A stretch of DNA of 64,000 bases from Selaginella tamariscina (Eukaryota > Streptophyta > Lycopodiopsida > Selaginellales > Selaginellaceae), in assembly GCA_003024785.1 (NCBI GenBank), contig PUQB01000376.1, forward strand, positions 1 to 64,000. The letters are read 5' to 3'. This document shows, in pieces, positions 1-53,243 of this stretch. Under the pieces are notes generated by a model. That model did not search any database. It worked only from the letters and a program-made list of their open reading frames with translations, and was not told where the DNA came from. Position 1 is the stretch's first letter, and the number at the start of each line of letters is the position of its first letter. The position numbers and the translations under genes were made by a program.

Positions 1-651
1 GACATCTCTTGCCCGTCTGTGGATAAACTCTCCGTCGCCTGAGGAATGTATGTAATGTAATAAATACCAATCAGTGATCGCTCACACTTACTTGACATGA
101 CTGGGACAAAATGTTCACTGGGTTTTAGTATTGTCGTCACCCACCATCTCGAGAATCTTTGTGGCCAAAAGCATAGATTTCCTCATGTGTGATGTGCTTC
201 CCGTATGAAACTGCCACCTGTATGTATGCAGACACGGAGGCATTAAATGAGATGCACACGTGATTAATTTGAGAAGATGTACAACAAGTTATACCTTGTC
301 ACCCACATTCAACTCATTCATAGGCTTGGTTTTTCCAGTCGCCTTATTATAAATTTTAATTCGCTCGATCTTTAATATCTTTAATTATAATTAACTTTAG
401 ATTAAATGATTTAATTACACATATGTTATATAATAAGATGATAAAGCACCTGGGAAACAGCCGTTTTTACATTGGGAAGCACAGTTATTTTTGCTACAGT
501 AAGCATTGCCGGTTCCACAATAACCATACTTGCTACAGCATTGACCCTTTGGACATGGACATTTACCATCTTGTGCACTACAATAAGAAAATAAAAAAGT
601 GGCTAACACAGCAAAAGCAAGAAGAAAAGATTGAAGCTTGAAAGCAGCCAT
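1..651 (-). pseudogene. Hint copy A: hevein-type chitin-binding plus Hog domain, decayed, cut by window edge
   Basis: Exon 1 (651 down to 450) is intact. It encodes a signal peptide ([20 protein letters not shown]...), an 8-cysteine hevein-like domain ([22 protein letters not shown]) and the Hedgehog-like processing site GCFPG. Exon 2 (about 335 to 288) has lost its acceptor and first codons: the sequence runs from intron 1 directly into the ...GKTKPMNEL part. Exon 3 lacks 26 nt and 11 nt relative to copy B, which breaks the frame. Exon 4 starts at 38 and leaves the window. The copy is almost identical to copy E at an offset of about 21.2 kb and shares all its deletions. It is therefore a pseudogene unless a peptide is made from exon 1 alone, read through into intron 1. 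Confidence 0.85.
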
Positions 652-654
652 ATC

Positions 655-910
655 GATATGAAATAACTGCAAATGACACTTGTTATATATAGTACAAGTG
701 CACCGTGGCGAGCACGTCGTATAGACAATTTATTCAAAGCTGGGTATGTATTATATACCTGTACATGAGGGGGATTGCATACAAGCTCAAGTGAATCTCT
801 ATAACTAGAGTGTGTTGACAGTGTGCGTTTTTCCTATCTGGTGTGTATGGTGCATACAAAGTCAAGTCAAGCAAGATAATATGAGATATTGACAGTCAAG
901 TCAAGCAAAA
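655..910 (-). promoter_or_regulatory. Promoter of Hint copy A (TATA box and W-box cluster)
   Basis: Read on the minus strand, a TATATATA-type box lies at about 684-691. Four TTGACT W-box cores (AGTCAA on the plus strand) lie at 860-865, 865-870, 894-899 and 899-904. The block is a near mirror image of the copy B promoter, so A and B are divergently transcribed from the two arms of an inverted repeat. Confidence 0.6.
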
Positions 911-1069
911 TAATACATATGAGAAATTGTCATATACTATACGCCTTTGGTGGAATGTGCCAAATCTGAGGGTTTAGGAAAAGATTTCCAAACATAAAAT
1001 TATATTGACTATCTGGGGACTTTGTTGAATAAAAAAGACACACACACTATCAATAATTACTCTAGATAT

Positions 1070-1830
1070 TAAAAAATACAGATTATGCACTGAATATTCT
1101 TTTTAATTACGTAGTGAATATCATTTTTAGATGAAATTTAGAAACTACATACTTAAACATAGATTTAAAAGAATATAGATTTAAGCGGAAATATAGTGTA
1201 TATACATAGATTACTAATTGAGATGTTGGCATTCACATTTACATTCTTTAATTAACTTACAAATACACATAAAGTTAAATAGTATATTTTGGAGTTATTA
1301 CTGCATTTCATACGGTGTTACAATGATAATCTTGTCCAAATTATAAGCAAAACATTCTTATCTAATAATAAGATCCTATGTGGCGTCATCTTCTCAAAAT
1401 TTCTAATGTATGGCATTTTGAGACTTTTTTCATGTTATATAAAAGCGACGCTAATGGAGCTTATGAATGTTGATGTGGATAACATCAACGTAAGGCAGGA
1501 ACATGATGAATTTGAGCTTAAAGATTAAGTGTGTGTTTATGTTCTAATTTGAATGGGATGAAAAGTTTATAAATAAATTCATTTCAGTTTCTTTAGAGGT
1601 TTTGTATGTTTGATTGCTCTAAAACACAAACTCGGTCCGGATGCAAATTTTGCGTTCAAAACCTTTTACGATCACGTGTGTTCTTGTGGTTAGGACGTTT
1701 AGATTCATTATTTATAAAGTATGATTTGAACTTCGTAAACCATCGTTAATGTTTGCTGTAAATTTTTTGAGAAGCATAACAACCATATTTATGTAACTTG
1801 GAAAATGACATTTCATGAGAGAGAGAAGAT
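1070..1830. other. Non-coding spacer with a conserved small ORF (1289-1528 +)
   Basis: AT-rich sequence between the copy A promoter and the 3' end of dual-retropepsin copy i. A plus-strand frame of up to 79 codons (1289-1528, from a non-ATG start) ends with an acidic tail (ELMNVDVDNINVRQEHDEF). The same frame is identical at 22489-22728, and its 3' part is kept at 13445-13744. Identity among copies could simply reflect recent duplication. No domain is recognised and no promoter is visible, so coding status is doubtful. Confidence 0.3.
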
Positions 1831-1832
1831 AA

Positions 1833-2851
1833 CTATTTCAGACAAGTTGAAACTACTTTAAACGCTTGCTTCCGATGTTGGAAACAAATTAAGTAAAACT
1901 GCCCATGAGAACCAACAAAAAACGATAGAAAAATCAACCATGCCCCAAACTTAAGAAAACATATTGAAATAGCAAAGAAGCAACAAGCAATCCAGAAGAA
2001 CGCCTGCTTTACGTTTCCCACCTAGTTTGGGGAAGATAAACCATCTTTGCAAGGTGGAGAAGTCACTTTGGCGAGATCTAAATAATCCCTGCCATACTGG
2101 ATACAATATTGTTGGTTCTCATTGCCAGAAAGCATCAGCTGCCGTGTCTCAAAGTTGATGTCAGGCCAAGGCATTCCAAATGTCAATTCCCATGGGAACT
2201 GGATGACTCTGAAAGTCCTCTCGTCCGAAAAGCTTCTTACATAATAGCGAAGACGCACAAGTTTCGTGCTACGGTGTTCCCCATGAAAAGTGTGGACAGG
2301 GACATCTGTATTTTTCCACAAAATCTTCAGCCACCACATCACAGTTAGCACCAGTAGTGTCCCAGAACGGCGACGGTAAGTACATGCTCCTGTGTTCCGT
2401 CCACTCGAACAACAGCATGAACCAAGTTGTACTTTGTTGCACACGCGCTATGGTTCTTAGGCTTTAGGTAACGCTGTGTTTTCACACCTCCGTACGGATA
2501 TTGAAACGAGTAGTGATAGAAGGTGAAGTTTCTGGTGGCAAAGTTGATTCTTGGACGGTGCTTTGTAGCCAGGTTTCTCCTACTATCATATCCTTATTAC
2601 GCGTGTCACATACCAAGAACCGTCTTGTCTCTTTAAATTTCCCCAATGAATATTCTACTGTGCAAATCCCTTCTATTTTGAACTTCAGTTCCCTTATGTC
2701 ATTTAAATAAGGCTCTGTAGGAAGCCTCAATTCACAAACAAACAAGCGCCTCCGATATGAAATCCAAACCAGAACCAGTATCCCACAGAATCTTTATTCT
2801 CTTACCTCTCAGATGCCCGTGTGTTACAATACTGTCGTCATTGCTAACCAT
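1833..2851 (-). pseudogene. Dual retropepsin-like gene, copy i
   Basis: The reading begins at ATG 2851 (MVSNDDS-type start seen in full in copy iii). Domain 1 is a retropepsin-like fold with DTGSG expected near the start and (D)MIVGETWL as the ILGxxWL-like motif. A 1-nt deletion after GETWL breaks the frame. Domain 2 is read in shifted frames: VPVHTFHGEHRSTKLVRLRY, then FGMPWPDINFETRQL, which matches the LGMPWL...W motif of retroelement proteases. After a stop near 2022, a further frame down to 1833 is strongly hydrophobic (AFFWIACCFFAISICF...) and could encode one or two membrane segments. No LTR or reverse transcriptase is visible next to it. The segment lies exactly between Hint copies A and B. 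Confidence 0.6.
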
Positions 2852-2854
2852 ACG

Positions 2855-4260
2855 TGTGTGTGAAAATTAAACTAAATATATAAAAGTTTACTAGTTTTAT
2901 CTTCAAAATATCAGTTGTTAGGATTAAAAACAATGTTAAATTAAATCTCATTATTATACGCCAAATGCCACCCGCCAGTTTGTTACAAGAAAAATATGTG
3001 TAATAATGAACTTATCATTACAAAGAGAATGAAGTTTTCACGAGTTAAACATAAATAATTTTAAAATGAAATGACTCAAATCTTAATTCAAGCAATACTA
3101 TGTACAACTACAACAAGGATAACTAGAGATGGATGGAGCATGAATTAGTTCAGAACATTAAACAACCAAGGGAGAAGAAATAGTGATTCGGACGAAAATA
3201 ACATCACCGATCCCTCAAGTTACTGTAGACAACATCGTTAAGACACGAACTCATACACAGTGGGGACACGGTGGAGTCACTAATTCAACAGTTGGAGACT
3301 CATCGAGCAATAGAACTCAAATAAAACACCGTTTTATGAACATGTGAATTCTATTGCTTGGAACACAGGATCACCTACGAGCATACATTAGATATATGAG
3401 GAGCACCTTTTTATGAACAGGTGAATTCCATCCTTCAGAATACCCGTAAGCATAATGAATTATAGGCAATTGAGGATCACTTACACGCATACATTAGAAA
3501 TTTAGCAGAGGACGGATGTTTTGCTTATAATCTGAAATGTAGTAATAATTTCAAAATACGGACACTTGCAGAATGGGGCCCTTTTTAGATTAGGACATAT
3601 ATAAGAAATTGAGGAGAAATTAATAATTCTCTTTATTTTAAAAGGTTTTCCAAGTGTTTATTAAGTATAATTTTTTTAAATTTTTTAATTAATATGCATT
3701 AAAACCCATTCACATATGCATTTAAATAAAAAACATATTAATTAAAAAATGCGTTAATCTTAAATAAATTTACATTTTAATTTGTAAGGAATTCACATTT
3801 AATTTTTATTTTCCTTCTTATGTCATAATAATAATGCATGTTAAATCCCTCTTAAAAAATATTGTAATTAAGGAGGCCATTGTGCAAACTAACCCAAAAT
3901 ATACTATATAAATTGATGTGTATTTATAAGTTTTAATTAAAGAATGCAAATGTGAATGTCAACATCTCAATTATTAATCTATGTAATATTCACTATATTT
4001 TCGCTTAAATCTATATTATGTAAAATCTATGTTTAAGTATGTAATTTCTAAGTTTCATTTAAAAATATGCATAATCTGTATTTTTTAAGTCTCAACTAGT
4101 GAATACCAATATCTAGAGTAATTACTGATAGTGTGTGTCTTTTTTATTCAACAAAGTCTAGATCATCAATATAATTTTATGTTTGGAAATCTTTTCTTAA
4201 ACCCTCAGATTTGGCACATTTCCACCAAAGGCGTATAGTATATGACAATTTCTCATATGT
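2855..4260. other. AT-rich non-coding spacer upstream of Hint copy B
   Basis: No supportable gene. The first half carries the intact (empty) target site for the gypsy insertion found in the E/F unit: acattagatatatgagg at about 3385-3401. From about 3950 onward the sequence is an inverted match of 720-1250, forming the second arm of the A/B inverted repeat. Confidence 0.6.
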
Positions 4261-4275
4261 ATTATTTTGCTCGAC

Positions 4276-4505
4276 TTGACTGTCAATATCTCATATTATT
4301 TTGCTTGACTTGACTTTGTATGCACCATACACACCAGCTATAGAGATAGATAGGAAAAACGCACACTACCAGACACACTCCAGTTATAGAGATTCACTTG
4401 AGTTTGTATGCAATCCCCCTCATGTACAGGTATATAATACATATCCAGCTTTGAATAAATTGTCTCTACGACGTGCTCGCCACGGTGCACTTGTACTATA
4501 TATAA
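4276..4505 (+). promoter_or_regulatory. Promoter of Hint copy B: W-box cluster and TATA box
   Basis: Three TTGACT cores lie at 4276-4281, 4305-4310 and 4310-4315, that is 222-261 nt upstream of the ATG. A TATATATA box lies at about 4497-4504, roughly 35 nt upstream of the ATG, so the 5' leader must be very short. TTGAC(C/T) is the W-box recognised by plant WRKY factors, which fits a chitin-binding defence-type product. Binding is an inference. Confidence 0.6.
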
Positions 4506-4536
4506 CAAGTGCCATTTGCAGTTGTTTCATATCGAT

Positions 4537-5718
4537 ATGGCTGCTTTCAAGTTTCAATTTTTTCTTCTTGCTTTTGCTGTGTTAGCCACTTTTTTATTTG
4601 CTTATTGTAGTGCACAAGATGGTAAATGTCCATGTCCAAAGGGTCAATGCTGTAGCAAGTATGGTTATTGTGGAAAAGGCACGGATTACTGTGGCAAAAA
4701 TAACTGTGCTTCCCAATGTAACAACGGCTGTTTCCCAGGTGCTCTTTATCATCTTATTATATAGCATATATGTAATTAAATCATTTAATCTAAAGTTAAT
4801 TACAGTTAAAGATATTAAAGATCCAGCGAATTAAAATTTATAATAAGTTTGATTCAATTGCAGGCGATGCTTTGGTGTACTTATCAACTGGAAAAACCAA
4901 GCCTATGAATGAGTTGAGTGTGGGTGACAAGGTATAATTTGTTGTACATCTTCTCAAATTAATCACGTGTGCATCTCATTTAATGCCTGCATACAGGTGG
5001 CAGTTTCAGACGGGAAGTACATCACACATGAGGAAATCTATGCTTTTGGCCACAAAGATTCCCAAGCTGTGTCCGAGGTCATAAAGCTCGAGATGGTGGG
5101 TGACGACAATACTAAAACCCTAGAACTTACCAGTGAACATTTTGTCCCAATCATGTCAAGTAAGTGTGAGCGATCACTGATTGGTATTTATTACATTACA
5201 TACATTCTTCAGGCGACGGAGAGTTTATCCACAAACGCGCAAGAGATGTCAAAACTGGTGATATTCTTACGGCTTCAAATGCTTCCCTGCATACCACTAT
5301 TCCTTACATTATCAGTGGTAATGGGATTTTTATATATTGTAAGATTTGGTCTTAATTATTTAAATGTGCAGGAATCTCTAAGGTGGACAAGGATGGACTC
5401 TACAAACCATACACAACGAGCGGAAACTTAATCGTTAACGATGTTACAGTTTCATGTCACAGCGAGTGGTTCCTCGATGGGATATTTGACGCATTGAAGA
5501 TAACGCACATGTTACCCGCTGCTTACCAAGTTGTTTTGCTTCCAGCTCGGTTACTGTACAAGACACTTGGAAAAGATATGTTTGCTGCAGTTTACAACAA
5601 ACTTGATTCAAATCTGGACATTGCAGTGTTTGGTACTATGTATGGTGGTAAGATTGCCGTCACTGCAGCCATGGCTGCCATGTATGGGCTCTACAAGGTT
5701 TCCACCAAGTATGCATGA
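4537..5718 (+). CDS. Secreted hevein-type chitin-binding peptide fused to a Hedgehog-type Hint (Hog) domain, intact copy B
   Basis: Five exons (4537-4738, 4864-4931, 4997-5159, 5213-5317, 5372-5718) with GT-AG introns sum to 885 nt, giving 294 aa without a stop. Residues 1 to about 26 are a signal peptide. Residues 27-64 hold eight cysteines in hevein order (KCPC, QCC, GYCG, DYCG, NNC, SQC), with a shortened first loop. GCFPGDALVYL at about 64-74 is the Hog start: Gly-Cys-Phe is the Hedgehog self-cleavage site. Further Hog marks are [17 protein letters not shown] (TxxH block), TGDILTAS and [20 protein letters not shown], matching the Hedgehog GLYxPxTxxGxxxV..V..SC pattern. A hydrophobic tail of about 85 aa follows, in the place of the sterol-recognition region of Hedgehog. 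Expected product: a secreted precursor that cleaves itself at Gly-Cys and frees a peptide of about 38 aa, perhaps with a C-terminal adduct. The start ATG follows the TATA box and begins the signal peptide. Confidence 0.9.
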
Positions 5719-8700
5719 TGGACCTTGTGTCTAGCAGCATCAGGCACCTAAAAGCCTATGCATGTAAATATAATCCTATGCTAAAATAAAAAATAAATAA
5801 ATCGTTATTGTAATTGTGAAACAGTATTTTTTACATAGTATATATAATAAAGTACAGTTACTTTAATTAACCACTCAAATAAAAGTTTGAAACAAATAAG
5901 GTAAATAAGATTCAAGAGAATATATTGTACCTAAAAAATCTAAAATTTGTAAGTCGACATGTACAACTTTATCATGTTATTTATTAATATTATTAATATA
6001 ATTTATATATTAATTTAAATCTAAGCTATTCAATTATATCTTATAGCATATTACAAAAAGAATTATTTTTTTTGCAAAGGCTACAATTATGTAAACAGAG
6101 TTTAAGAATGTAAACCATCTCAATTAAAACATACTATTAGCACATTGCAGAAAAATTATGTATGAAACAATATTTTAGTATCTTAATTAAACTTTTCAAA
6201 GTTTAATAATTAGGGAATATTTAAGGCATATTCTTTATCATAAGATATTATTAGGTTTATACAAAAAAGAATATCTTTAAGATAATATAGTACCTTAATT
6301 AAATATAAATATTATTAAGATATTTTAAATTTCTCAGTTGTATAACAGGTTTCTAATACCCATGCATGAACTCTTATTCTATTTTTAAGTTGACTCATAT
6401 CACACACTGTTGTAGCCTTACCATTGAGATATTTATAATTATGAATTTGAATTATTTTTATTTAATCTCTTTTGTGTATGTATATGTGCGTGTGTGGTGT
6501 GTGTGTGTGTGTGTGTGTGTTTACAATGAAATAAGAAGTATGCATATTTATGTTCACCCCAAACCTTAAATTTAAATATTCATACCCAATACTAAACAAA
6601 GACTTTCCATATATTATTAGTTTGGTGTATAAAATAAATTATTATAAAGATACTTTAAAGTTTTATTAATAGTGTTTAACCACAGTTTATTCACTAGAAA
6701 TGTTTACTTAATCTTTAAATCATAGGAAAATGTGGATAGTAATGTGGTCTGGCTTTGCTTATTACATTTTCTTGGTTAACGATAGATATTCAAAAGTATA
6801 TTTTAAATTAAACAGCAATGAAAGATTTTATTATTTACAACAAATCCAATAGTTGATTAGACTTACTAAAAAGAAAATTTATGCTTAACATGACTCAAAA
6901 GTTTAAATATGTTAATGTTTTTACATATTAGTAAATCACCTAATCAAAAGTTAACTTATTTTCTATTAAAGAAGGACAAATATACCATTCTTCATTGATC
7001 TATGTTTTAATTTATTTTTTTTCAAATCTCACCTAAAGAATGCTTTTTATTTAAGTATGTGTATTTCTAAGTTTAATTTATTAATCTATGTAATATTCAC
7101 TATACTTAAATCTATATTTAGTAAAATGCTTATTACATTTTGTGGTTTAGGACAGATATTCAAAAGCATATTTTAAATTAAATAATAATGATTATTTACG
7201 ACAAATCAAATTGTTATTTAGACTTATTAAAAGGAAAACTTATGCTTAATGATAACTCAAAAGCTTAAATATATTGATGTTTTTACGTATTAGTAAATCA
7301 CCTAATAAAACATTAACTTTTTTTTTATATTAAAGAAGGGCAATTATACCATACTTCATTGATCTATGCTTTAAATTTATAGTTTTCAAATCTCAATTAA
7401 AGAATACCTTTTATTTAAGTATGTATATTTCCAAGTTCAATTTATTAATCTATTTAATATTCACTATACTTAAATCTATATTTATTAAAATATATTTAAA
7501 TTTAAAGAGTCAGTATTTAAAGGTAGGAATTGCTAAACTCATTTTATTAATAAATTTTTGTGCTAACCCACTTACATAAATATCAAAAGAGGAGGCTCCA
7601 TCACAAGTATATGTAATGAGAATTTTAAGTTCAAAAGAGTATCCGTTATTTATCAATGCAAGCTTAGATTGTGCTGTCAAGGCACAGCTCTGTTGTGTTG
7701 CCACTTTTAAACAATATGGATACGTCCCATGATGGTAAGATTATGCCTTTGTGATTAAATATGTCGCATATAAGGAGTTAACTCCTCTTGTTTAATAATC
7801 TGCTTGCAAGCCTATAAGGCATTGCATGAGTTCATGATCCACAAGAATAAGAATAGTGTTTGAGACCTTGCTCCGATTATTTCATTCGTCTTGTAGCTCG
7901 GCTAGCACACACATCCTAACTCATAAGGTGAGCATTGACTGTGGACTTGGCCAATTGGGCGTGTGAATTTTTAAAAGACGAGTTCTTAATGATTTTTTTT
8001 AAGGTTTCCAAAAAGGGTTTTTAGGGTTGGCATCTGGTGAGTTACATATTTGACACCAAATGAAAACTCTGATAATTGTGGAACAAGCAAAATGCATATA
8101 CGATATCTAAGACTCATTTTCATCTTTATTCCTAAATGAAGATGAAAATGAGCTACAAAATAATATCAAAAAGGACAAAACTAATAAACTTAATACTTTT
8201 TAGAAGCCCAAAAAGCTTGTTTAATGATCACTCAAGCTTTTCAAAAGTTTTTGTTGTAGACTCGTTTTATGAGAGTCAAGCAAAAAGGTGTCATTATCTA
8301 TGAGATGCATGGATAACCTTTGTCTTCCAAGTGGTATAGTTTTAGAGCATGGCAACAATTCATGGTTCATAGCTCTACATAATACGCTACTACTTGAAGA
8401 ATAATGCTATGTTTGTGGTATTTAAATACATATGTCAATTGAAAGTGGTTCAATCTTAACTTGTGAATAATTGATACAATATACAATGTTTACCAACCTA
8501 GTGTGATCCTTAAAACTATCAATTACTCTTTACATTTTTTTTGTCGAAGTTAAAAACTTAATGCTAGACTTCAAATTTTGAATTATAACTTGATAAGTAT
8601 CTTAAATGACTTAATGTGCTAAACTCTTATCAATACCAGAACACTCAAATAGTTTTAAATATTTGCAATTGTGCGTTACATTATAGAGTGTACAACCTAC

Positions 8701-10445: not shown

Positions 10446-11750
10446 TAATTTTAAAGTTTAAAGTAATGGTTTGTGGGAAAATAACCCATTAGTGTAAACT
10501 ATCGGAGATTAAAAGAAGTCACTAATTGAATGATTGGTGAGAACCACCCATTCAAAAAAATAGTCTATGATGTTGTAGTGAATACTATTTTTAATTACAT
10601 AATGAATATTATTTTTAGTTGAAAATTAGAAAACAGACTTAAATTTAAACATAGATTTTAATAAATATATATTTAAGTATAGTGAATATTAAATAGATTA
10701 ATAAATTGAACCTAGAAATACACATACTTAAATAAAAGGTATTCTTAGTTGAGATTTGAAAAATAAATTTAAAACATAGATCAATGAATAATGGTATAAT
10801 TGCCCTTCTTTAATGTAAAAAAAAATTAATTTTTTATAAAATGATTTACTAATATGTAAAAACATCAACATATTTAAGCTTTGAGTCATTGTTAAGCATA
10901 AGTTTTCCTTTTAATAAGTCTAATCAACAATTTGATATGTCGTAAATAATTATTATTTAATTTAAAATATGCTTTTGAATATCTGTCCTAAACCACAAAA
11001 ATGTAATAAACATTTACTAAATAGAAGTATAGTGAATATTACATATATTAATAAATTAAATATACTTAAATAAAAAGCATTCTTTAGTTGAGATTTGAAA
11101 AATATAAATTAAAACATAGATCAATGAAGAATGATATAATTGCCCTTTTTAATATAAAATAAGTTAACTTTTGATTAGGTGATTTACTAATGTGTAAAAA
11201 CATTAACATATTTAAACTTTTGAGTCATCGTTAAGCATAAGTTTTCCTTTTAATAAGTCTAATCAATATTCAATTTGTTGTAAATAAAAAATCTTTCATT
11301 GTTATTTAAGTTAAAATATGCTTATGAATATTTGTTTTAAACCACGAAAATGTAATAAGCAAAGCCAGACCACATTACTATTCACACTTTCCCATAATTT
11401 AAAGATTAAGTGAACACTTTTAATGAATAAACACTATTAATAAAACTTTAAAGTATCTTTATAATAATTTATTTTATACACCAACATGAATATTTAAATT
11501 TAAGGTTTAGGGTGAACATAAATATGCATACTTCTATTTCATTGTATATAACACTATACAAAAGAGATTAAATAAAAATAATTCAAGTTCATAAATTTAA
11601 TATCTCAATGGTAAGGCTACAATAGTGGTGATATGAGTCGATTTAAAAATAGAATAAGAGTTTCATGCATGGGTATGTTCTTAGAAACATGTTATACAAT
11701 TGAGAAATTTAAAATATCTTAATAATATTTAATTACATTCATAGGCTGTT
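10446..11750. repeat. Inverted copy of the region downstream of Hint genes, 3' side of copy C
   Basis: Read on the minus strand, this region matches the 3' flank of copy B. For example, gcaaagccagaccacattac at about 11355 is the reverse of the block near 6740. Compared with B it lacks roughly 0.5 kb directly after the stop codon. No gene seen. Confidence 0.65.
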
Positions 11751-11752
11751 CA

Positions 11753-12875
11753 TCATGCATACCTGGCGGAAACCTTGTAGAGCCCATACATGGCAGCCAT
11801 GGCTGCAGTGAGGCAATCTTACCACCATACATAGTACCAAACACTGCAATGTCCATATTTGAATCCAGTTTGTTGTTAGCTGCAGCATACAGATCTTTTC
11901 CAAGTGTCTTGTACAGTAACCGAGCTGGAAGCAAAACAACTTGGTAAGCAGCGTGTAACATGTGCGTTATCTTTAATGCGTCGAATGTTCCCTCCAGGAA
12001 CCACTCGCTCTGACATGAAACTGTAACATCGTTAACGATTGTTTCCGCTCGTTGTGTATGGTTTGTAGAGTCCATCCTTGTCCACCTTAGAGATTCCTGC
12101 ACATTTAAATTTAAGACCAAATCTCACAATATATAAAACTCCCATTACCACTGATAATGTAAGGAATAGTGGTGTGCAGGGAAGCATTTGAAGCCGTAAG
12201 AATATCACCAGCTTTGACATCTCTTGCCCGTTTGTGGATAAACTCTCCGTCGCCTGAAGAATGTCGTAATGTAATAAATACCAATCAGTGATCGCTCACA
12301 CTTACTTGACATGACTGGGACAAAATATTCACTGGGTTTTAGTATTGTCGTCACCCACCATCTCGAGAATCTTTGTGGCCAAAAGCATAGATTTCCTCAT
12401 GTGTGATGTACTTCCCGTATGAAACTGCCACCTGTATGCAAACACCGGGGCATTAAATGAGATGCACACGTGATTAATTTGAGAAGATGTACAACAAGTT
12501 ATACCTTGTCACCCATATTCAACTCATTCATAGGCTTGGTTTTTCCAGTTGATAAGTACACGCCTGTCAAACTTATTATGAATTTTAATTCGCTGGATCT
12601 TTAATATCTTTAACTGTAATTAACTTTAGATTAAATGATATATATGTTATATAATAAAATGATAAAGAGCACCTGGGAAACAGCCGTTTTTACATTGGGA
12701 AGCACAGTTATTTTTGCCACAGTAAGCATTGCCGATTCCACAATAACCATACTTGCTACAGCATTGACCCTTTGGACGTGGACATTTACCATCTTGCGCA
12801 CTACAATAAGCAAATATAAAAAAGGGCTAACACAGCAAAAGCAAGAAGAAAAGATTGAAACTTGAAAGCAGCCAT
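11753..12875 (-). pseudogene. Hint copy C: chitin-binding plus Hog gene, decayed
   Basis: Same five-exon layout as copy B. Exon 1 runs from ATG 12875 to 12673 but has a +1 insertion in the signal peptide (GTTAGCCC then six T's), which leads to a stop. Its second cysteine codon reads CGT (Cys to Arg). The acceptor end of intron 1 and the CFPG-to-exon-2 join are damaged near 12550-12575. Exon 3 shares the 26-nt and 11-nt deletions of A and E. Exon 5 (12096-11753) has a 2-nt deletion in the SGNLIV stretch and a 1-nt deletion near 11812. The stop TGA at 11755-11753 is kept. Confidence 0.85.
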
Positions 12876-12889
12876 ATCGATATGAAATA

Positions 12890-13130
12890 ACTGCAAATGA
12901 CACTTGTTATATATAGTACAAGTGCACCGTGACGAGCACGTCGTATAGACAATTTATTTAAAGCTGGGTATGTATTATATACTTGTACATGAGGGGGATT
13001 GCATACAAACTCAAGTGAATCTCTATAACTGAGTGTGTCTGACAGTGTGCGTTTTTCCTATCTGGTGTGTATGGTGCATACAAAGTCAAGTCAAGCAAAT
13101 AATATGAGATATTGACAGTCAAGTCAAGCA
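12890..13130 (-). promoter_or_regulatory. Promoter of Hint copy C
   Basis: A TATATATA-type box lies near 12908-12915. Minus-strand TTGACT cores lie at 13084-13089, 13089-13094, 13117-13122 and 13122-13127, the same arrangement as in A and E. Confidence 0.5.
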
Positions 13131-14044
13131 AAATAATACATATGAGAAATTGTCATATACTATACGCCTTTGGTGGAATGTGCCAAATCTGAGGGTTTAG
13201 GAAAAGATTTCCAAACATAAAATTATATTGACTATCTGGGGACTTTGTTGAATAAAAAAGACACACACTATCAATAATTACTCTAGATATTAAAAAATAC
13301 AGATTATGCACTGAATATTCTTTTTAATTACGTAGTGAATATCATTTTTAGATGAAATTTAGAAACTACATACTTAAACATAGATTTAAAAGAATATAGA
13401 TTTAAGCGGAAATATAGTGTATATTACATAGATTACTAATTGAGATGTTGCATTCACATTTACATTCTTTAATTAACTTACAAATACACATAAATTTAAA
13501 TAGTATATTTTGGAGTTATTACTGCATTTCATACGGTATTAATGATAATCTTGTCCAAATTATAAGCAAAACATTCTTATCTAATAATAAGATCCTATGT
13601 GGTGTCATCTTCAAAATTTCTAATGTATGGCATTTTGAGACTTTTTCATGTTATATAAAAGCGACGCTAATGGAGCTTATGAATGTTGATGTGGATAACA
13701 TCAACGTAAGGCAGGAACATGATGAATTTGAGCTTAAAGATTAAGTGTGTGTTTATGTTCTAATTTGAATGGGATGAAAAGTTTATAAATAAATTCATTT
13801 CAGTTTCTTTAGAGGTTTTGTATGTTTGATTGCTCTAAAACACAAACTCGGTCCGGATGCAAATTTTGCGTTCAAAACCTTTTACGATCACGTGTGTTCT
13901 TGTGGTTAGGACGTTTAGATTCATTATTTATAAAGTATGATTTGAACTTCGTAAACCATCGTTAATGTTTGCTGTAAATTTTTTGAGAAGCATAACAACC
14001 ATATTTATGTAACTTGGAAAATGACATTTCATGAGAGAGAGAAG

Positions 14045-15067
14045 ATAACTATTTCAGACAAGTTGAAATACTTTAAACGCTTGCTTCCGATGTTGGAAAC
14101 AAATTAAGTAAAACTGCCCATGAGAACCAACAAAAAACGATAGAAAAATCAACCCATGCCCCCAAACTTAAGAAAACATATTGAAATAGCAAAGAAGCAA
14201 CAAGCAATCCAGAAGAACGCCTGCTTTACGTTTCCCACCTAGTTTGGGGAAGATAAACCATCTTTGCAAGGTGGAGAAGTCACTTTGGCGAGATCTAAAT
14301 AATCCCTGCCATACTGGATACAATATTGTTGGTTCTCATTGCCAGAAAGCATCAGTTGCCGTGTCTCAAAGTTGATGTCAGGCCAAGGCATTCCAAATGT
14401 CAATTCCCATGGGAATGGATGACTCTGAAAGTCCTCTCGTCCGAAAAGCTTCCTACATAATAGCGAAGACGCACAAGTTTCGTGCTACGGTGTTCCCCAT
14501 GAAAAGTGTGGACAGGGACATCTGTATTTTTCCGCAAAATCTTCAGCCACCACATCACAGTTAGCACCAGTAGTGTCCCAGAACGGCGACGGTAAGTACA
14601 TGCTCCTGTGTTCCGTCCACTCGAACAACAGCATGAACCAAGTTGTACTTTGTTGCACACGCGCTATGGTTCTTAGGCTTTAGGTAACGCTGTGTTTTCA
14701 CACCTCCATACGGATATTGAAACGAGTAGTGATAGAAGGTGAAGTTTCTGGTGGCAAAGTTGATTCTTGGACGGTGCTTTGTAGCCAGGTTTCTCCTACT
14801 ATCATATCCTTATTACGCGTGTCACATACCAAGAACCGTCTTGTCTCTTTAAATTTCCCCAATGAATATTCTACTGTGCAAATCCCTTCTATTTTGAACT
14901 TCAGTTCCCTTATGTCATTTAAATAAGGCTCTGTAGGAAGCCTCAATTCACAAACAAACAAGCGCCTCCGATATGAAATCCAAACCAGAACCAGTATCCC
15001 ACAGAATCTTTATTCTCTTACCTCTCAGATGCCCGTGTGTTACAATACTGTCGTCATTGCTAACCAT
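14045..15067 (-). pseudogene. Dual retropepsin-like gene, copy ii
   Basis: Begins at ATG 15067. The N-terminal part reads CELRLPTEPYLNDIRELKFK and KDMIVGETWL, then shifts frame at the same 1-nt deletion as copy i, so i and ii share an ancestor already broken. The second domain is read at 14660-14400 (VPVHTFHGEHRSTK, RYYVGSFSDERTFRV) and has an extra 1-nt loss at the FPWELTFG stretch. The hydrophobic tail region is present but out of frame. It lies between Hint copies C and D, as copy i lies between A and B. Confidence 0.6.
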
Positions 15068-15069
15068 AC

Positions 15070-16440
15070 GTGTGTGTGAAAATTAAACTAAATATATAAA
15101 AGTTTACTAGTTTTATCTATCGTAAAATATCAGTTGTTAGGATTAAAAACAATGTTAAATTAAATCTCATTATTATACGCCAAATGCCACCCGCCAGTTT
15201 GTTACAAGAAAAATATGTGTAATAATGAACTTATCATTACAAAGAGAATGAAGTTTTCACCAGTTAAACATAAATAATTTTAAAATGAAATGACTCAAAT
15301 CTTAATTCAAGCAATACTATGTACAACTACAACAAGGATAACTAGAGATGGATGGAGCATGAATTAGTTCAAACATTAAACAACCAAGGGAGAAGAAATA
15401 GTGATTCGGACGAAAATAACATCACCAATCCCTCAAGTTACTGTAGACAACATCGTTAAGACACGAACTCATACACATTGGGGACACGGTGGAGTCACTA
15501 ATTCAACAGTTGGAGACTCATCGAGCAATAGAACTCAAATAAAACACCGTTTTATGAACATGTGAATTCTATTGCTTGGAACACAGGATCACCTACGAGC
15601 ATACATTAGATATATGAGGAGCACCTTTTTATGAACAGTGAATTCCATCCTTCAGAATACCCGTAAGCATAATGAACTATAGGCAATTGAGGATCACTTA
15701 CACGCATACATTAGAACTTTAGCAGAGGACGGATGTTTTGCTTATAGTAATAATTCTAAAATATGGGACACTTGCAAATGGGGCCCTTATTAGATTAGGA
15801 CATATACGAGGAGAAATTAATATTCTCTTTATTTTAAAAGGTTTTCCAAGGATTTATTAGTATAATTTTTTTAATTTTTTAATTAATATGCATTAAAACC
15901 CATTCACATATGCATTTAAATAAGAAAACATATTAATTAAAAAATGCATAATTAAACCTTAAATAAATTTACATTTTAATTTATAAGAATTCATATTTAA
16001 TTTTTATTTTCCTTCCTATGTCATAATAATAATACATGTTAAATTCCTCTTAAAAAATATTGCAATTAAAGGGCCATTGTGCAAACTAACCCAAAATACA
16101 TTATATAAATTTATGTGTATTTATAAGTTTTAATTAAAAATGCAAATGTGAATGCAACATCTCAATTATTAATTTATGTAATATTCACTATATTTCCGCT
16201 TAAATCTATATTATGTAAAATCTATGTTTAAGTATGTAGTTTTTAAGTTTCATTAAAAATGTGCATAGTCTGTATTTTTTAAGTCTCAACTAGTGAATAC
16301 CAATATCTAGAGTAACTACTGATAGTGTGTGTCTTTTTTATTCAACAAAGTCCCCAGATAGTCAATATAATTTTATGTTTGGAAATCTTTTTTAAACCCT
16401 CAGATTTGGCACATTTCCACCAAAGGCGTATAGTATATGA
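15070..16440. other. AT-rich non-coding spacer upstream of Hint copy D
   Basis: Homologous to 2855-4260, with small indels. The empty gypsy target site is present at about 15601-15620 (atacattagatatatgagga). No gene seen. Confidence 0.55.
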
Positions 16441-16465
16441 CAATTTCTCATATGTATTATTTTGC

Positions 16466-16700
16466 TTGACTTGACTGTCAATATCTCATATTATTTGCTT
16501 GACTTGACTTTGTATGCACCATACACACCAGCTATAGAGATAGATAGGAAAAACGCACACTACCAGACACACTCCAGTTATAGAGATTCACTTGAGTTTG
16601 TATGCAATCCCCCTCGTGTACAGGTATATAATACATATCCAGCTTTGAATAAATTGTCTCTACGACGTGCTTGCCACGGTGCACTTGTACTATATATAAC
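16466..16700 (+). promoter_or_regulatory. Promoter of Hint copy D
   Basis: Four TTGACT cores lie at 16466-16471, 16471-16476, 16499-16504 and 16504-16509. A TATATATA box lies at about 16691-16698, with the ATG at 16731. Confidence 0.55.
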
Positions 16701-16730
16701 AAGTGCCATTTGCAGTTGTTTCATATCCAT

Positions 16731-17868
16731 ATGGCTGCTTTCAAGTTTCAATTTTTTTTCTTGCTTTTGCTGTGTTAGCCACTTTTTTATTTGCTTATTG
16801 TAGTGCACAAGATGGTAAATGTCCATGTCCAAAAGGTCAATGCTGTAGCAGTTTGGTTATTGCGGAACCGGCAAGGATTACTGTGGCTGTTTCCCAGGTG
16901 CTCTTTATCATCTTATTATATAGCATATATGTAATTAAATCATTTAATCTAAAATTAATTACAATTAAAGATATTAAAGATGGAGCGAATTAAAATTTAT
17001 AATAAGTTATTGCAGGCGATGCTTTGGTGTACTTATCAACTGGAAAAACCAAGCCTATGAATGGTTGAGTGTGGGTGACAAGGTATAATTTGTTGTACAT
17101 CTTCTCAAATTAATCACGTGTGCATCTCATTTAATGCCCGCATACAGGTGGCAGTTTCAGACGGGAAGTACATCACACATGAGGAAATCTATGCTTTTGG
17201 CCGCAAAGATTCCCAAGCTGTGTCCGAGGTCATAAAGCTCGAGATGGTGGGTGACGACAATACTAAAACCCTAGAACTTACCAGTGAACATTTTGTCCCA
17301 GTCATGTCAAGTAAGTGTGAGCGATCACTGATTGGTATTTATTACATTACATACATTCTTCAGGCGACGGACAGTTTATCCACAAACGCGCAAGAGATGT
17401 CAAAACTGGTGATATTCTTACGGCTTCAAATGCTTCCCTGCATACCACTATTCCTTACATTATCAGTGGTAATGGGATTTTTATATATTGTAAGATTTGG
17501 TCTTAATTATTTAAATGTGCAGGAATCTCTAAGGTGGACAAGGATGGACTCTACAAACCATACACAACGAGCGGAAACTTAATCGTTAACGATGTTACAG
17601 TTTCATGTCACAGCGAGTGGTTCCTCGATGGGATATTTGACGCATTGAAGATAACGCACATGTTACCCGCTGCTTACCAAGTTGTTTTGCTTCCAGCTCG
17701 GTTACTGTACAAGACACTTGGAAAAGATATGTTTGCTGCAGTTTACAACAAACTGGATTCAAATCTGGACATTGCAGTGTTTGGTACTATGTATGGTGGT
17801 AAGATTGCCGTCACTGCGCCATGGCTGCCATGTATGGGCTCTACAAGGTTTCCACCAAGTATGCATGA
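16731..17868 (+). pseudogene. Hint copy D: chitin-binding plus Hog gene with several 1-nt deletions
   Basis: The exon layout follows copy B, with exon 1 from ATG 16731 and stop TGA at 17866-17868. Single-base losses occur in the signal peptide (T-run near 16750), in the GQCCS(K)FGY stretch, in exon 2 (MNEL) and near 17818 in the C-terminal tail. Exons 3 and 4 and most of exon 5 are otherwise open and nearly identical to F. It shares with F a 33-nt in-frame deletion that joins DYCG directly to CFPG, removing the last two cysteines of the hevein domain. All four losses are single bases, so assembly error should be excluded before it is called dead. Confidence 0.8.
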
Positions 17869-20700
17869 TGGACCTTGTGTCTAGCAGCATCAGGCACCTA
17901 AAAGCCTATGAATGTAAATATAATCCTATGCTAAAATAAAAAATAAGTAAATCGTTATTGTAATTGTGAAACATTATTTTTTACATAGTATATATAATAA
18001 AGTATAGTTACTTTAATTAATCACTCAAATAAAAGTTTGAAACGAATAAGGTAAATAAGATTCAAGAAAATATATTGTACCTAAAAAATCTAAAATTTGT
18101 AAGTCGACACGTACAACTTTATCATGTTATTTATTAATATTATTAATATATAATTATATATTAATTTAAATCTAAGCTATTCAATTATATAAACTTAAGG
18201 TTTGGGGTGAACATAAATATGCATACTTCTTATTTCATTGTATATAACACACACACACACGCACATATACATACACAAAAGAGATTAAATAAAAATAATT
18301 CAAATTCATAATTATAAGTATCTCAATGGTAAGGCTACAATAGTGTGTGATATGAGTCAACTTAAAAATAGAATAAGAGTTCATGCATGGGTATGTTCTT
18401 AGAAACCTGCTATACAATGAGAAATTTAAAATATCTTAATAATATATTTTATATTTAATTAAGGTACCATATTATCTTAAAGATATTCTTTTTTGTATAA
18501 ACCTAATAATATCTTATGATAAAGAATATGCCTTAATTATTAAACTTTGAAAAGTTTAATTAAAATACTAAAATATTGTTTGATACATAATTTTTCTGCA
18601 ATGTGTTAATAGTATGTTTTCATTGAGATGGTTTACATTCTTAAACTCTGTTTACATAATTGTAGCCTTTGCAAAAAAATAATACTTTTTGTAATATGCT
18701 ATAATATTCGTACCCAATACTAAACAAAGACTTTCCATATATTATTGGGTTGGTGTATAAAATAAATTATTATAAAGATACTTTAAAGTTTTACTAATAG
18801 TGTTTAACCACAGCAGTTTATTCACTAGAAATGTTTATTTAATCTTTAAATCATAGGAAAATGTGGATAGTAATGTGGTCTGGCTTTGCTTATTACATTT
18901 TCGTGGTTAAAGACAGATATTCAAAAGCATATTTTAAATTAAATAACAATGAAAGATTTTATTATTTACAACAAATCGAATAGTTGATTAGACTTATTAA
19001 AAGGAAAACTTATGCTTAACGATGACTCAAAAGTTTAAATATGTTAGTGTTTTTACATATTAGTAAATCACCTAATAAAAAGTTAACTTATTTTCTATTA
19101 AAGAAGGACAAATATACCATTCTTCATTGATCTATGTTTTAATTTATTTTTTTCAAATCTCAACTAAGGAATGCTTTTTATTTAAGTATGTGTATTTCTA
19201 AGTTTAATTTATTAATCTATGTAATATTCACTATACTTAAATCTATATTTAGTAAAATGCTTATTACATTTTTGTGGTTTAGGACAGATATTCAAAAGCA
19301 TATTTTAAATTAAATAATAATGATTATTTACGACAAATCAAATTGTTATTTAGACTTATTAAAAGGAAAACTTATGCTTAATGATAACTCAAAAGCTTAA
19401 ATATATTGATGTTTTTACGTATTAGTAAATCACCTAATAAAAACTTAATTATTTTTATATTAAAGAAGGGCAATTATACCATTCTGCATTGATCTATGCT
19501 TTAAATTTATAGTTTTCAAATCTCAATTAAAGAATACCTTTTATTTAAGTATGTATATTTCCAAATTCAATTTATTAATCTATTTAATATTCACTATACT
19601 TAAATCTATATTTATTAAAATATATATTTAAATTTAAAGAGTCAGTATTTAAGGGTAGGAATTAAGTTAGGCTAAACTCATTTTATTAATAAATTTTTGT
19701 GGTAACCCACTTACATAAATATAAAAAGGGAGGCTTCATCAAAAGTATATGTAATGAGAATTCTAGGTTCAAAAGACAGTTTGTTATTTTCTGATCGATG
19801 CAAAGTTTGCTTGTGCTGTGAAGGCACAACTTTGTTGTGCTGCCACTTTTAAACAATATGGGTACGTTCCATGTTGGCAGGATTATGCCTTTCTGATTAA
19901 ATATGTCGTATACAAGGATTAAGTATGTCGCATATAAGGAGTTAACTCCTCTTGTTTAATAATCTGCTTGTAAGCCTAGAAGGCATTGCATGAGTTTATG
20001 ATCCGCAAGAATAGTGTTTGAGACCTTGCTCCGACTGTTTCATCCATCTTGTAGCTCAACTAGCACACACATCCTGACTCACGAGGTGAGCATTGACTGT
20101 GGACTTGGCCGGCGTGTGAATTCTTAAGAGACGAATTCTTAATGATTTTGTAGGGTTTTCAAAAAGGGTTTTTAGGGTTGGCATTTGATGAGCTGCATAT
20201 TTAACACCAAATAAAAACTCTAATAGTTGTGGAACAAACAAAATACATATACCATATCTAAGACTCATTTTTATCTTCATTCCTAAATGAAGATGAAAAT
20301 GAGCTACAAAATAATATTAAAAAGGACAAAACTAATACTTTTTAGAAGCCCAAAAAGCTTGTTTAATGATCACTCAAGCTTTTGTGGACTCGTTTTATGA
20401 GAGTTAAGCAAAAAAGTGTCATTATCTACGAGATACATGGATAACCTTTGTATTCCAAGTGGTATAGTTTTAGAGCATGACAACAATTCATGGTTTATAG
20501 CTCTACATAATACGCTATTACTTGAAGAACAATGCTATGCTTGTGGTATTTATAATACACATGTGAGTTGAAAATGGTTTAATCTTAACTTGTGAATAAT
20601 TAATACAATATACAATGTTTAACAACCTAGTGTGATCCTTAAAACTATCAATTATTCTTTACATTTTTTTGTCAAAGTTAGAAACTTAATGCTAGACTTT
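17869..20700. other. AT-rich intergenic region between convergent copies D and E, with an internal inversion
   Basis: Homologous to the 3' flank of copy B, but the piece at about 18192-18705 is inverted relative to B (about 6045-6565) and F. For instance, the Hint-flank block ccccaaacc...gcatacttc appears reversed at about 18197-18230. An ORF at 20056-20280 (minus) has no recognisable domain. Confidence 0.6.
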
Positions 20701-20731
20701 AAAATTTCATAGGCTGTTCATAGGCTGTTCA

Positions 20732-21851
20732 TCATGCATACTTGGCGGAAACCTTGTAGAGCCCATACATGGCAGCCATGGCTGCAGTGACGGCAATCTT
20801 ACCACCATACATAGTACCACACACTGCAATGTCCATATTTGAATCCAGCTTGTTGTAAGCTGCAGCATACAGATCTTTTCCAAGTGTCTTGTACAGTAAC
20901 CGAGCTGGAAGCAAAACAACTTGGTAATCAGCGGTAACATGTGCGTTATCTTTAATGCGTCGAATGTTCCCTCCAGGAACCACTTGCTGTGACATGAAAC
21001 TGTAACATCGTTAACGATTATGTTTCCGCTCGTTGTGTATGGTTTGTAGAGTCCATCCTTGTCCACCTTAGAGATTCCTGCACATTTAAATAATTAAGAC
21101 CAAATCTCACAATATATAAAACTCCCATTACCACTGATAATGTAAGGAATAGTGGTGTGCAGGGAAGCATTTGAAGCCGTAAGAATATCACCAGCTTTGA
21201 CATCTCTTGCCCGTCTGTGGATAAACTCTCCGTCGCCTGAGGAATGTATGTAATGTAATAAATACCAATCAGTGATCGCTCACACTTACTTGACATGACT
21301 GGGACAAAATGTTCACTGGGTTTTAGTATTGTCGTCACCCACCATCTCGAGAATCTTTGTGGCCAAAAGCATAGATTTCCTCATGTGTGATGTGCTTCCC
21401 GTATGAAACTGCCACCTGTATGTATGCAGACACGGAGGCATTAAATGAGATGCACACGTGATTAATTTGAGAAGATGTACAACAAGTTATACCTTGTCAC
21501 CCACATTCAACTCATTCATAGGCTTGGTTTTTCCAGTCGCCTTATTATAAATTTTAATTCGCTCGATCTTTAATATCTTTAATTATAATTAACTTTAGAT
21601 TAAATGATTTAATTACACATATGTTATATAATAAGATGATAAAGAGCACCTGGGAAACAGCCGTTTTTACATTGGGAAGCACAGTTATTTTTGCTACAGT
21701 AAGCATTGCCGGTTCCACAATAACCATACTTGCTACAGCATTGACCCTTTGGACATGGACATTTACCATCTTGTGCACTACAATAAGAAAATAAAAAAGT
21801 GGCTAACACAGCAAAAGCAAGAAGAAAAGATTGAAGCTTGAAAGCAGCCAT
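20732..21851 (-). pseudogene. Hint copy E: chitin-binding plus Hog gene, decayed
   Basis: Exon 1 (21851-21650) is intact with signal peptide, all eight cysteines and GCFPG. The intron 1 acceptor and start of exon 2 are deleted exactly as in copy A. Exon 3 carries the shared 26-nt and 11-nt losses. Exon 5 (21077-20732) has a 1-nt loss near 20930. Its near identity to A over more than 2.5 kb marks a recent duplication of the whole unit. Confidence 0.85.
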
Positions 21852-23032: not shown

Positions 23033-24085
23033 CTATTTCAGACAAGTTGAAACTACTTTAAACGCTTGCTTCCGATGTTGGAAACAAATTAAGTAAAACT
23101 GCCCATGAGAACCAACAAAAAACGATAGAAAAAAACCATGCCCCCAAACTTAAGAAAACATATTGAAATAGCAAAGAAGCAACAAGCAATCCAGAAGAAC
23201 GCCTGCTTTACGTTTCCCACCTAGTTTGGGGAAGATAAACCATCTTTGCAAGGTGGAGAAGTCACTTTGGCGAGATCTAAATAATCCCTGCCATACTGGA
23301 TACAATATTGTTGGTTCTCATTGCCAGAAAGCATCAGCTGCCGTGTCTCAAAGTTGATGTCAGGCCAAGGCATTCCAAATGTCAATTCCCATGGGAACTG
23401 GATGACTCTGAAAGTCCTCTCGTCCGAAAAGCTTCTTACATAATAGCGAAGACGCACAAGTTTCGTGCTACGGTGTTCCCCATGAAAAGTGTGGACAGGG
23501 ACATCTGTATTTTTCCACAAAATCTTCAGCCACCACATCACAGTTAGCACCAGTAGTGTCCCAGAACGGCGACGGTAAGTACATGCTCCTGTGTTCCGTC
23601 CACTCGAACAACAGCATGAACCAAGTTGTACTTTGTTGCACACGCAATATGGTTGTTAAGATTTTACTTTGTTGCACACGCGCTATGGTTCTTAGGCTTT
23701 AGGTAACGCTGTTTTTTCACACCTCCATACGGATGTTGAAACGAGTAGTGATAGAAGGTGAAGTTTCTGGTGGCAAAGTTGATTCTTGGACGGTGCTTAT
23801 GTAGCCAGGTTTCTCCTACTACTATATATCCTTACTACGCGTGTCACATACCAAGAACCGTCTTGTCTCTTTAAATTTCCCCAATGAATATTCTACTGTG
23901 CAAATCCCCTCTATTTTGAACTTCAGTTCCCTTATGTCATTTAAATAAGGCTCTGTAGGAAGCCTCAATTCACAAACAAGCGCCTCCGATGTGAAATCCG
24001 AACCAGAACCAGTATCCCACAGAATCTTTATTCTCTTACCTCTCAGATGCCCGTGTGTTACAATACTGTCGTCGTTGCTAACCAT
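23033..24085 (-). pseudogene. Dual retropepsin-like gene, copy iii (mosaic)
   Basis: Starts at ATG 24085 with MVSNDDSIVTHGHLRGKRIK, followed by ILWDTGSGSDFTSEALV, a clear retropepsin active-site motif. The frame stops after CDTRSKDI because of a small insertion. From about 23690 to 23640 it has the doubled CATKYNL segment found in copy iv but only once in i and ii. Downstream of that its 140-codon frame (23643-23221) is identical to copy i. The copy is thus iv-like at its 5' end and i-like at its 3' end. The membrane-tail region follows to about 23033. Confidence 0.6.
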
Positions 24086-26048: not shown

Positions 26049-26816
26049 CTCCACCAACTGGGTTTTGCCAACCTCTAGCTGTAACTCCTCAACACAAGCA
26101 ATTTAGCTTTGTGTGACAACTAAGCCCTCAATCTCATATTGAGGCACAGTCTTCGTTTAGCTCCACCAGCTGGGTTTTGCCAACCTACAACTGTAACTCC
26201 TCCACACAAGCACTGTAGCTTTGTGTGATAACTGAGCCCTCAATCTCGTATTGAGGCACAGTCTTCGTGCAGCTCCACCAGCTAGGTTTTGCCAATCTAC
26301 AACTGTAACTCCTCCACACAAGCACTGTAGCTCTGTGTGATAGTTGAGCCCTCAATCTCATATTGAGGCACAGTCTTCGTGCAGCTCCACCAGCTAGGTT
26401 TTGCCAACCTACAATTGTAACTCCTCCACACAAGCACTGTAGCTCTGTGTGATAGTTGAGCCCTTAATCTTGTATTGAGGCTCTTCGCGCAGCTCCACCA
26501 GCTGGGTTTTGCCAACCTCCAGCTGTAACTCCTCCACACAAGCAATGTAGCTCTGTGTGATAACTGAGCCTCAATCTCGTATTGAGGCTCTTCACGCAGC
26601 TCCACCAGCTGGGTTTTGCCAACCTCCAGCTGTAACTCCTCCACACAAGCAATGTAGCTCTATGTGATAGCTGAGCCCTCAATCTCGTATTGAGGCTCTT
26701 CGTGCAGCTCCACCAGCTAGGTTTTGCCAACCTCCAGATGTAACTCCTCCACACAAGCACTATAGCTCTGTGTGATAGCTAAGCCTTCAAATTCGTATTG
26801 AGGCACAGTCTTCGTG
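26049..26816. repeat. Seven tandem copies of a 107-112 bp piece of the gypsy protease region
   Basis: Units start at 26049, 26161, 26273, 26385, 26493, 26600 and 26708. Three units are 107-108 bp, close to 36 codons, and read on the minus strand as QLVELxEEPQYEIEG...CVEELQLEVGK. Three are 112 bp because of a 4-nt insertion (CACAG) and so shift the frame. The repeat expands a single stretch of the retropepsin region found once at its upstream edge. Confidence 0.92.
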
Positions 26817-29627: not shown

Positions 29628-29649
29628 TGGACCTTGTGTCTAGCAGCGT

Positions 29650-41839: not shown

Positions 41840-41929
41840 ACACTTTGGGTAGAGAACTTCAAAACTATAACTAGTTTGTCAGGATCGACTTGTAAACTTT
41901 CACGTGAAATGCGATAACCAAATAAGTAG

Positions 41930-52260: not shown

Positions 52261-52279
52261 CTTAATATTCTCGGTTAGC

Positions 52280-53092: not shown

Positions 53093-53243
53093 CAGTTATA
53101 TTAATAAAGCATGAGAAATTATCTCTATACATAATTATGTATTATTGCACATGCATATTATTAAGCAACCGCAGTTCTGATTTCTTAGAAATATTGCATA
53201 AACAGATATCATAAATAACATAATTATTTATGTGCAGGACAAT
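53093..53243 (+). promoter_or_regulatory. Presumed leader of the plus-strand gene
   Basis: AT-rich interval between array 2 and ATG 53244, with ttatttatgtgcag directly before the coding start, possibly the acceptor of a leader intron. Confidence 0.35.

Follow-up and report, generated by a model that had tools for sequence, protein, structure and literature searches.

A hevein-type chitin-binding domain joined to a Hedgehog-type Hint domain in a predicted plant Hog gene of Selaginella tamariscina

Hog proteins of land plants have been in print since 2008, when those of Physcomitrella and Selaginella were reported with a conserved upstream region and, in the case of Physcomitrella, with a good signal peptide (Burglin, 2008; PMC2362128, in part). 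The same source postulates that a sterol or similar moiety was attached to the cargo of the ancestral Hog, while a word search of its main text for "chitin" returned nothing. Other well-described proteins of relevance here are the 8C hevein-like peptides (hevein, morintides, ginkgotides), which, in the portion of PMC5374622 that deals with their architecture, consist of a signal peptide, a single hevein domain with a chitin-binding motif, and a C-terminal domain that is of the Barwin or class-I chitinase type, or is missing. We describe here a gene of S. tamariscina whose product shares this layout, but in which the C-terminal domain is a Hog. In the reading that we favor, with a probability of about 0.55, it encodes a plant Hog protein made as a secreted precursor that would cut at Gly64-Cys65 and thereby free a chitin-binding peptide of 38-42 residues, perhaps carrying a sterol-like adduct.

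This gene, hereafter copy B, occupies positions 4537-5718 of the forward strand (as do all of its features given below) in the window, i.e., the whole stretch of 64,000 nucleotides that was analyzed. It is made of five exons and four introns, with 885 nt of coding sequence corresponding to 294 amino acids and a stop. Exon 1 (4537-4738) encodes the signal peptide, the hevein-type domain, and the residues Gly64-Cys65-Phe66-Pro67, and is followed by a GT donor at 4739. The Hint domain starts on exon 2 (4864-4931; from GDAL to GDK), its core is on exon 3 (4997-5159), and, after exon 4 (5213-5317), exon 5 (5372-5718) encodes its end together with a C-terminal region resembling an adduct-recognition region, up to the stop codon at 5716-5718; exons 2 to 4 all have AG/GT borders. 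All four introns are of the GT-AG type and the 294-aa translation is free of internal stops, in agreement with a first-pass annotation in which this gene was said to be fully open over five exons. Upstream, an in-frame stop is found at 4456 and a TATA-box-like element, CTATATATAACAAGTG (4496-4511), begins 41 nt 5' of the ATG, a distance that is identical in all six of the long copies, A to F, of this gene in the window (see below). AATAAA polyadenylation-like signals follow the stop codon at 5785 and 5792 (5785-5797). Judging from its sequence, copy B is a genuine gene model that belongs to a known domain family and carries a new cargo. A chance open reading frame was considered as well and judged unlikely, and no serious alternative, in view of the intact splice borders and the Pfam matches.

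The predicted signal peptide covers residues 1-22 (4537-4602) or 1-26 (to 4614), with an ambiguous cleavage site and a hydrophobic segment whose Kyte-Doolittle mean is 2.22 across the 19 residues starting at residue 8. It is followed by a hevein domain (residues 24-61; 4606-4719) that matches Chitin_bind_1 (PF00187) with an E-value of 1.1e-7 and 32.4 bits, for a cut-off of 27.8, and through which the whole protein finds its best PDB match, wheat germ agglutinin (E 1.6e-9). Residues 40-51 match SxΦxΦCGx4Φ, the hevein chitin-binding motif as given in the relevant passage of PMC5374622. Nine cysteines precede Cys65, at positions 24, 31, 33, 38, 39, 45, 52, 57, and 61; of the signal peptide and eight-cysteine chitin-binding domain that had been annotated initially, the domain is confirmed, and the count is to be qualified as follows. 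Counted from Cys24, whose x8 distance to Cys33 is canonical for Cys-I, the gaps are 8, 4, 0, 5, 6, 4, and 3, as compared to the 8C hevein-like spacing CX8CX4CCX5CX6CX5CX3C and the morintide gaps of 8, 4, 0, 5, 6, 5, and 3 that are listed in PMC5374622 (in part). The copy B protein hence differs from the 8C peptides by the extra Cys31 and by a loop 5 that is shorter by one residue. Since a signal peptidase cut after Ala22 would retain Cys24 and a cut after Ala26 would remove it, the mature peptide is predicted to have either nine or eight cysteines, and to be released as 42 or 38 residues, respectively.

The remainder of the protein is a Hog. The Pfam Hint profile (PF01079) matches residues 60-211 with an E-value of 5.3e-29 and 101.8 bits, well above the cut-off of 29.7, and the motifs GCFPGDA, TSEH (TxxH), and VTVSC on which the initial assignment to the Hedgehog type was based are all where they had been placed. 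Absence of a Hint HMM match, named with the first-pass annotation as a ground for refuting it, is thereby not borne out. The whole protein used as a query also matches Hedgehog in the PDB (6TD6, E 1e-8), and phmmer aligns the Hint part, from its first cysteine, to Drosophila Hh (1AT0, E 2.2e-7; 6TYY, E 1e-8). With these Hedgehog proteins (1AT0, 6TYY, 6TD6), similarity extends over about 145 residues of the Hint domain and includes Cys1, the TxxH block, and the VxxSC strand, but the copy B protein has His in place of Asp303; the Hedge signaling domain is absent from the four Pfam families reported for it at E-values up to 1. At the predicted self-cleavage site, Gly64-Cys65 (4726-4731), the residue with which the Drosophila Hh Hint domain begins is the counterpart of Cys65, and 41 of the 50 aligned relatives have Cys there (8 gaps, and Gly in P0028). 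Gly64 is found in 17 of 50, so that Gly at this place is no constant feature of the family. His109 (5051-5053) stands at the place of Asp303, the general base of Drosophila Hh, in the alignments to 1AT0 and 6TYY, and 48 of the 50 relatives also have His there, the other two being gaps. The Thr135-Ser-Glu-His138 block (5129-5140) aligns with TxxH of Drosophila Hh; its first position is Thr in 26 relatives and Ser in 22, and its last is His in 48, with two gaps in each case.

According to parts of PMC9163320, the D303H change in the fly Hint domain, whose structure is 6TYY, retains structure and activity and broadens sterol use, with a gain of more than 200-fold on coprostanol. Because D303H behaves in this way, the His109 state of plants resembles that of a Hedgehog variant with a wider choice of sterols, and we infer from this analogy that plants may load sterols. 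In animal Hh, the motif-J cysteine forms a disulfide with Cys1 and acts as a redox brake. The corresponding Cys208 of the motif-J SC (5455-5457) is present in the copy B protein and in 3 of the 50 relatives (P0031, P0045, and P0049), but in no aligned land-plant relative. Replacement of this cysteine in untruncated moss and red-algal Hogs is mentioned in Burglin (2008; PMC2362128, in part).

The C-terminal region (5458-5715) begins with HSEWFLD, and its weakly hydrophobic end is a possible membrane anchor. The motif HS[E/D/S]W[F/I]LD is found in 35 of 51 rows and is followed, in green Hogs, by YQ and P.R. Alignment of fly Hh runs across the Hint part only; a Sonic hedgehog stretch reaches the start of the C-terminal region and, at a non-significant 7.9 bits, is the sole alignment of that region to animal Hedgehog. 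The Kyte-Doolittle mean used as a threshold here is 1.6. Within the last 60 residues, the best 19-residue mean ranges from 1.25 to 2.34 over the 20 green-class rows, half of which (10/20) reach this threshold, with the copy B protein below it at 1.33. P0002 scores higher in a different part of its Hog region than in the C-terminal stretch. From these sequences, a membrane anchor appears plausible for the Hog class, and we are unsure of one in the copy B protein itself.

Relatives of this protein were collected by protein searches, with 14 hits from a first search and 50 from a second one that scored the 8000 candidates sharing most words. They come from Selaginella, Ceratodon, Physcomitrium, Adiantum, Marchantia, Riccia, Coccomyxa, a dinoflagellate, a diatom, a mussel, and metagenome proteins; identity to the 13 Hog hits of the first search is 38-50%. 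The set excludes P0014, which had matched through its hevein part; it is of the phospholipase type and has hevein domains but no Hint. A Pfam scan of the resulting 51 Hog proteins (copy B and its 50 relatives) found Hint in all of them, and Chitin_bind_1 in the copy B protein as opposed to 0/50 relatives; other non-Hint matches were few and included trypsin (2), AIG1 (2), fasciclin, Stig1, and CPL1-like (1 each). In a tree of 38 of these 51 proteins, from which 13 partial or very distant rows had been dropped, copy B falls in a clade of 20 green Hog rows with a support of 87/87 (not starred), two of the 20 being metagenome rows. The "plant-like" label given initially is thereby borne out for the Hog domain, and the placement is that of a green Hog as a whole rather than at any given position inside the 20-row clade. 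An animal Hedgehog contaminant was also considered and judged unlikely. By its HSEWFLD region and its grouping with green Hogs, the copy B protein belongs to the plant Hog class, alongside Hogs from mosses, lycophytes, ferns, and liverworts and from Coccomyxa. With other land-plant Hogs (Physcomitrella and Selaginella, as covered in part by PMC2362128; Ceratodon, Adiantum, Marchantia, and Riccia), it shares an N-terminal cargo before Hint, Cys1, His at the place of Asp303, and an HSEWFLD-type C-terminal region, and the Selaginella and Physcomitrium models imply matching introns. The cargo preceding the Cys varies among plant Hogs, from a few residues to about 200 aa, and can be Pro-rich or have 4-5 Cys; such differences are fitting for a Hog acting as a reusable release domain.

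A scan of a bacterial and archaeal collection yielded two confirmed loci, both in Geminicoccus (L001:2653-4362 and L002:2881-4452; Hint E-values of 5.9e-31 and 3.4e-31, respectively). As in the copy B protein, a Cys-rich stretch directly precedes CFPGDA in these Hogs and is followed by Hint, HSDWFLD, and a C-terminal hydrophobic stretch. They differ in being bacterial, in leaving PF00187 unmatched, and in sequence, with about 29-30% identity over 239-245 aligned residues; their Cys-rich stretch has a CC pair, and their C-terminus a clear hydrophobic stretch with an Arg-rich tail. In the metagenome proteins P0033, P0035, and P0036, the 40-residue stretch leading up to the Hint Cys contains 7-8 Cys. 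A viral collection gave 12 loci, and ORFs were examined for one of these 12, L003; its 1008-aa phage-like protein (L003:2941-5967) carries CFPGDA at residue 22 but lacks WFLD, and was rejected as an instance of the same thing. Full-text literature searches (titles and beginnings of abstracts, subscription journals being mostly outside their scope) revealed no hevein-Hint fusion among the matches listed, and likewise no functional description of this pairing, as had been supposed at the outset; nor did the literature covered describe an adduct or a role for a plant Hog domain. What is new here, as seen from the 51 Hog proteins scanned, is the hevein cargo on a Hog.

Copy B is the only intact member of a set of six long copies, A to F, the other five of which have frameshifts or deletions. 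Copies A (1-651, reverse strand; cut by the window edge) and E (20727-21851, reverse) are broken with an open exon 1, copy C (11748-12875, reverse) is also broken, and in all three of these copies exons 2 and 3 are incomplete. Copy D (16731-17873, forward) is broken by four single-base losses and a 33-nt deletion, and in copy F (28487-29632, forward) an in-frame deletion of 33 nt takes out 11 aa ahead of Cys65, while the loss of 1 nt shifts the reading frame in exon 5. A diverged remnant, G (35498-36033), and a fragment, H (39162-39281), are both on the forward strand. The long copies are arranged in head-to-head pairs, A/B, C/D, and E/F, that start at 651/4537, 12875/16731, and 21851/28487, and positions 1-4695 match 12216-16887 at 96.4%. 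If read into the intron, copies A and E would encode a short hevein peptide on its own, with a stop shortly after GCFPG; in copy F, the last two hevein Cys are lost with the 33-nt deletion, which would leave a six- or seven-Cys cargo joined in frame to CFPGDA.

Comparison of copy B with the other copies gives synonymous and nonsynonymous differences of 4/185 and 9/661 sites with F, 3/184 and 8/653 with D, 10/174 and 27/642 with E, 9/177 and 26/648 with C, 3/80 and 15/328 with A, and 20/75 and 90/309 with G. As pN/pS among the array copies is about 0.6-1.2, and as the private changes of copy B are 5 nonsynonymous and 1 synonymous, clear purifying selection is not visible; with partners that are broken and mostly young, these ratios neither prove nor exclude a function of copy B. 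Copy B may be in decay. In favor of a long-term constraint lasting until recently, it retains 52 of the 57 columns that are invariant in 10 close relatives and 68 of 80 near-invariant ones; the remaining 5 and 12, respectively, are changed in it.

These data must be weighed against the idea of a decaying array, in which copy B would be open only through its youth and its product would be of no present matter, the functional member being elsewhere or lost. Such a scenario, which would account for five broken copies out of six, for the pN/pS values, and for the retroelement pieces nearby, is possible, if on the whole unlikely: copy B still has its start, its stop, all eight splice sites, the TATA-like element, and 52 of the 57 invariant columns, and the copies are so young, as seen from the four synonymous differences between B and F, that the selection test has low power. 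Far more doubtful is the notion that the gene model is an artefact or merges two genes, the hevein exon 1 being transcribed separately from the Hint exons. Even though exon 1 is open in copies A and E where the start of exon 2 is lost, the Cys65-Phe-Pro of the Hint domain is on exon 1, in frame with the Gly-Asp-Ala on exon 2, and the order of the exons is unchanged in copies D and F. In addition, introns at matching places are implied by relatives, albeit by their protein models and not by genomic DNA: the Physcomitrium model P0017 has extra residues exactly after CFPG as compared to Ceratodon P0004, which is precisely the exon 1/2 place, and a stretch beginning right after GDK is missing from Selaginella P0016, at a point where P0012 resumes and P0013 joins, P0012 also being devoid of a stretch near exon 4. 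Because Hint spans exons 1 and 2 and because of these implied introns, separate transcripts are unlikely, which supports the single continuous gene of the first-pass annotation.

The mechanism predicted for this protein is well supported by its residues; secretion, cleavage, the adduct, chitin binding, and a role in defense are what we infer from knowledge of the family. The precursor would enter the ER, where the hevein domain would fold with its disulfides, and the Hint domain would turn the Gly64-Cys65 amide into a thioester, using Cys65 with Thr135 and His138. An external nucleophile, which His109 would activate and the C-terminal region would present close to the membrane, would then resolve this thioester and release the hevein peptide ending in Gly64, while the Hog half stays behind. 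The nucleophile would most likely be a plant sterol or a similar lipid alcohol, leaving the peptide membrane-tethered, with water as a fallback. At the cell surface, the peptide might bind fungal chitin or other GlcNAc polymers, as a defense molecule or a sensor. Weighing against this reading are the atypical hevein spacing, the variable residue ahead of the Cys, the weakly hydrophobic C-terminal stretch, the changed invariant columns, the five broken copies, and the pN/pS values. If water were instead the normal nucleophile, the Hog would be a built-in protease replacement, freeing an unmodified hevein antimicrobial peptide. There are precedents for this in PMC5374622 (in part), where hevein-like precursors are described as secreted proteins of three domains from which free peptides are produced, morintides being processed C-terminally at a conserved Gly. 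Nor is it clear, as judged from the fly and Sonic hedgehog alignments above, that the copy B protein conserves the sterol-recognition region of animal Hedgehogs. We nonetheless consider this rather improbable, as the conserved motifs of the C-terminal region are perhaps needless for a mere hydrolase and as His109 is compatible with activation of an alcohol. The protein could also remain uncleaved or held in the membrane, as a surface chitin binder with the Hint part as a stalk. A hydrophobic C-terminal anchor, if there is one, would be in line with this, as would the hydrophobic stretch and Arg-rich tail of the two bacterial Hogs of similar layout, but the first-step residues Cys65, Thr135, and His138 are conserved, and we hold this to be quite improbable.

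Building on self-cleavage with sterol or lipid transfer, a broader and distinctly speculative idea, which we advance as a doubtful one at this stage, is that in early land plants the Hog could be a swappable ligation cassette, adding a plant sterol or lipid alcohol to the C-terminus of small wall-directed peptides; with hevein as the cargo, the outcome here would be a lipid-tethered chitin sensor or antifungal. Plants would thereby have their first counterpart of Hedgehog sterylation. The mechanism favored above, if it works as predicted, would itself mean that Hedgehog-type protein ligation reaches plants and offers a new route for the maturation of plant defense peptides. Hevein is, moreover, a cargo of well-understood activity and gives a direct handle on the question, since assays for chitin binding are feasible and the C-terminus, once released, can be weighed for an attached group.

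Other features of the window include several of a retroelement type. Related stretches (83-99% by BLAST) are located at 2025-2447, inside pair A/B, and at 23224-23655, inside pair E/F, both on the reverse strand, as well as at 62786-63609 on the forward strand, at the far end of the window; there, the frame 62786-63367 gives matches to retroelement aspartyl-protease profiles. RNase H and integrase zinc-binding domains at 40680-41878 (reverse strand) are pieces of a Ty3-like retrotransposon, and a 112-bp tandem repeat in seven copies (26049-26816) is found beside a frame with marginal matches to retroviral-type proteases. An open frame of 368 aa at 54049-55152 (forward strand) has no Pfam match at E-values up to 0.1, and one partial protein match (57% over 27% of the frame). 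Lastly, the palindrome GGGATTAATCCC recurs 14 times in exact form in the region 49086-53041, including 7 occurrences as GGCGGGATTAATCCCGCC, and partly in tandem arrays; near 52600-53111, either strand can be read through the palindromes as a repetitive open frame.
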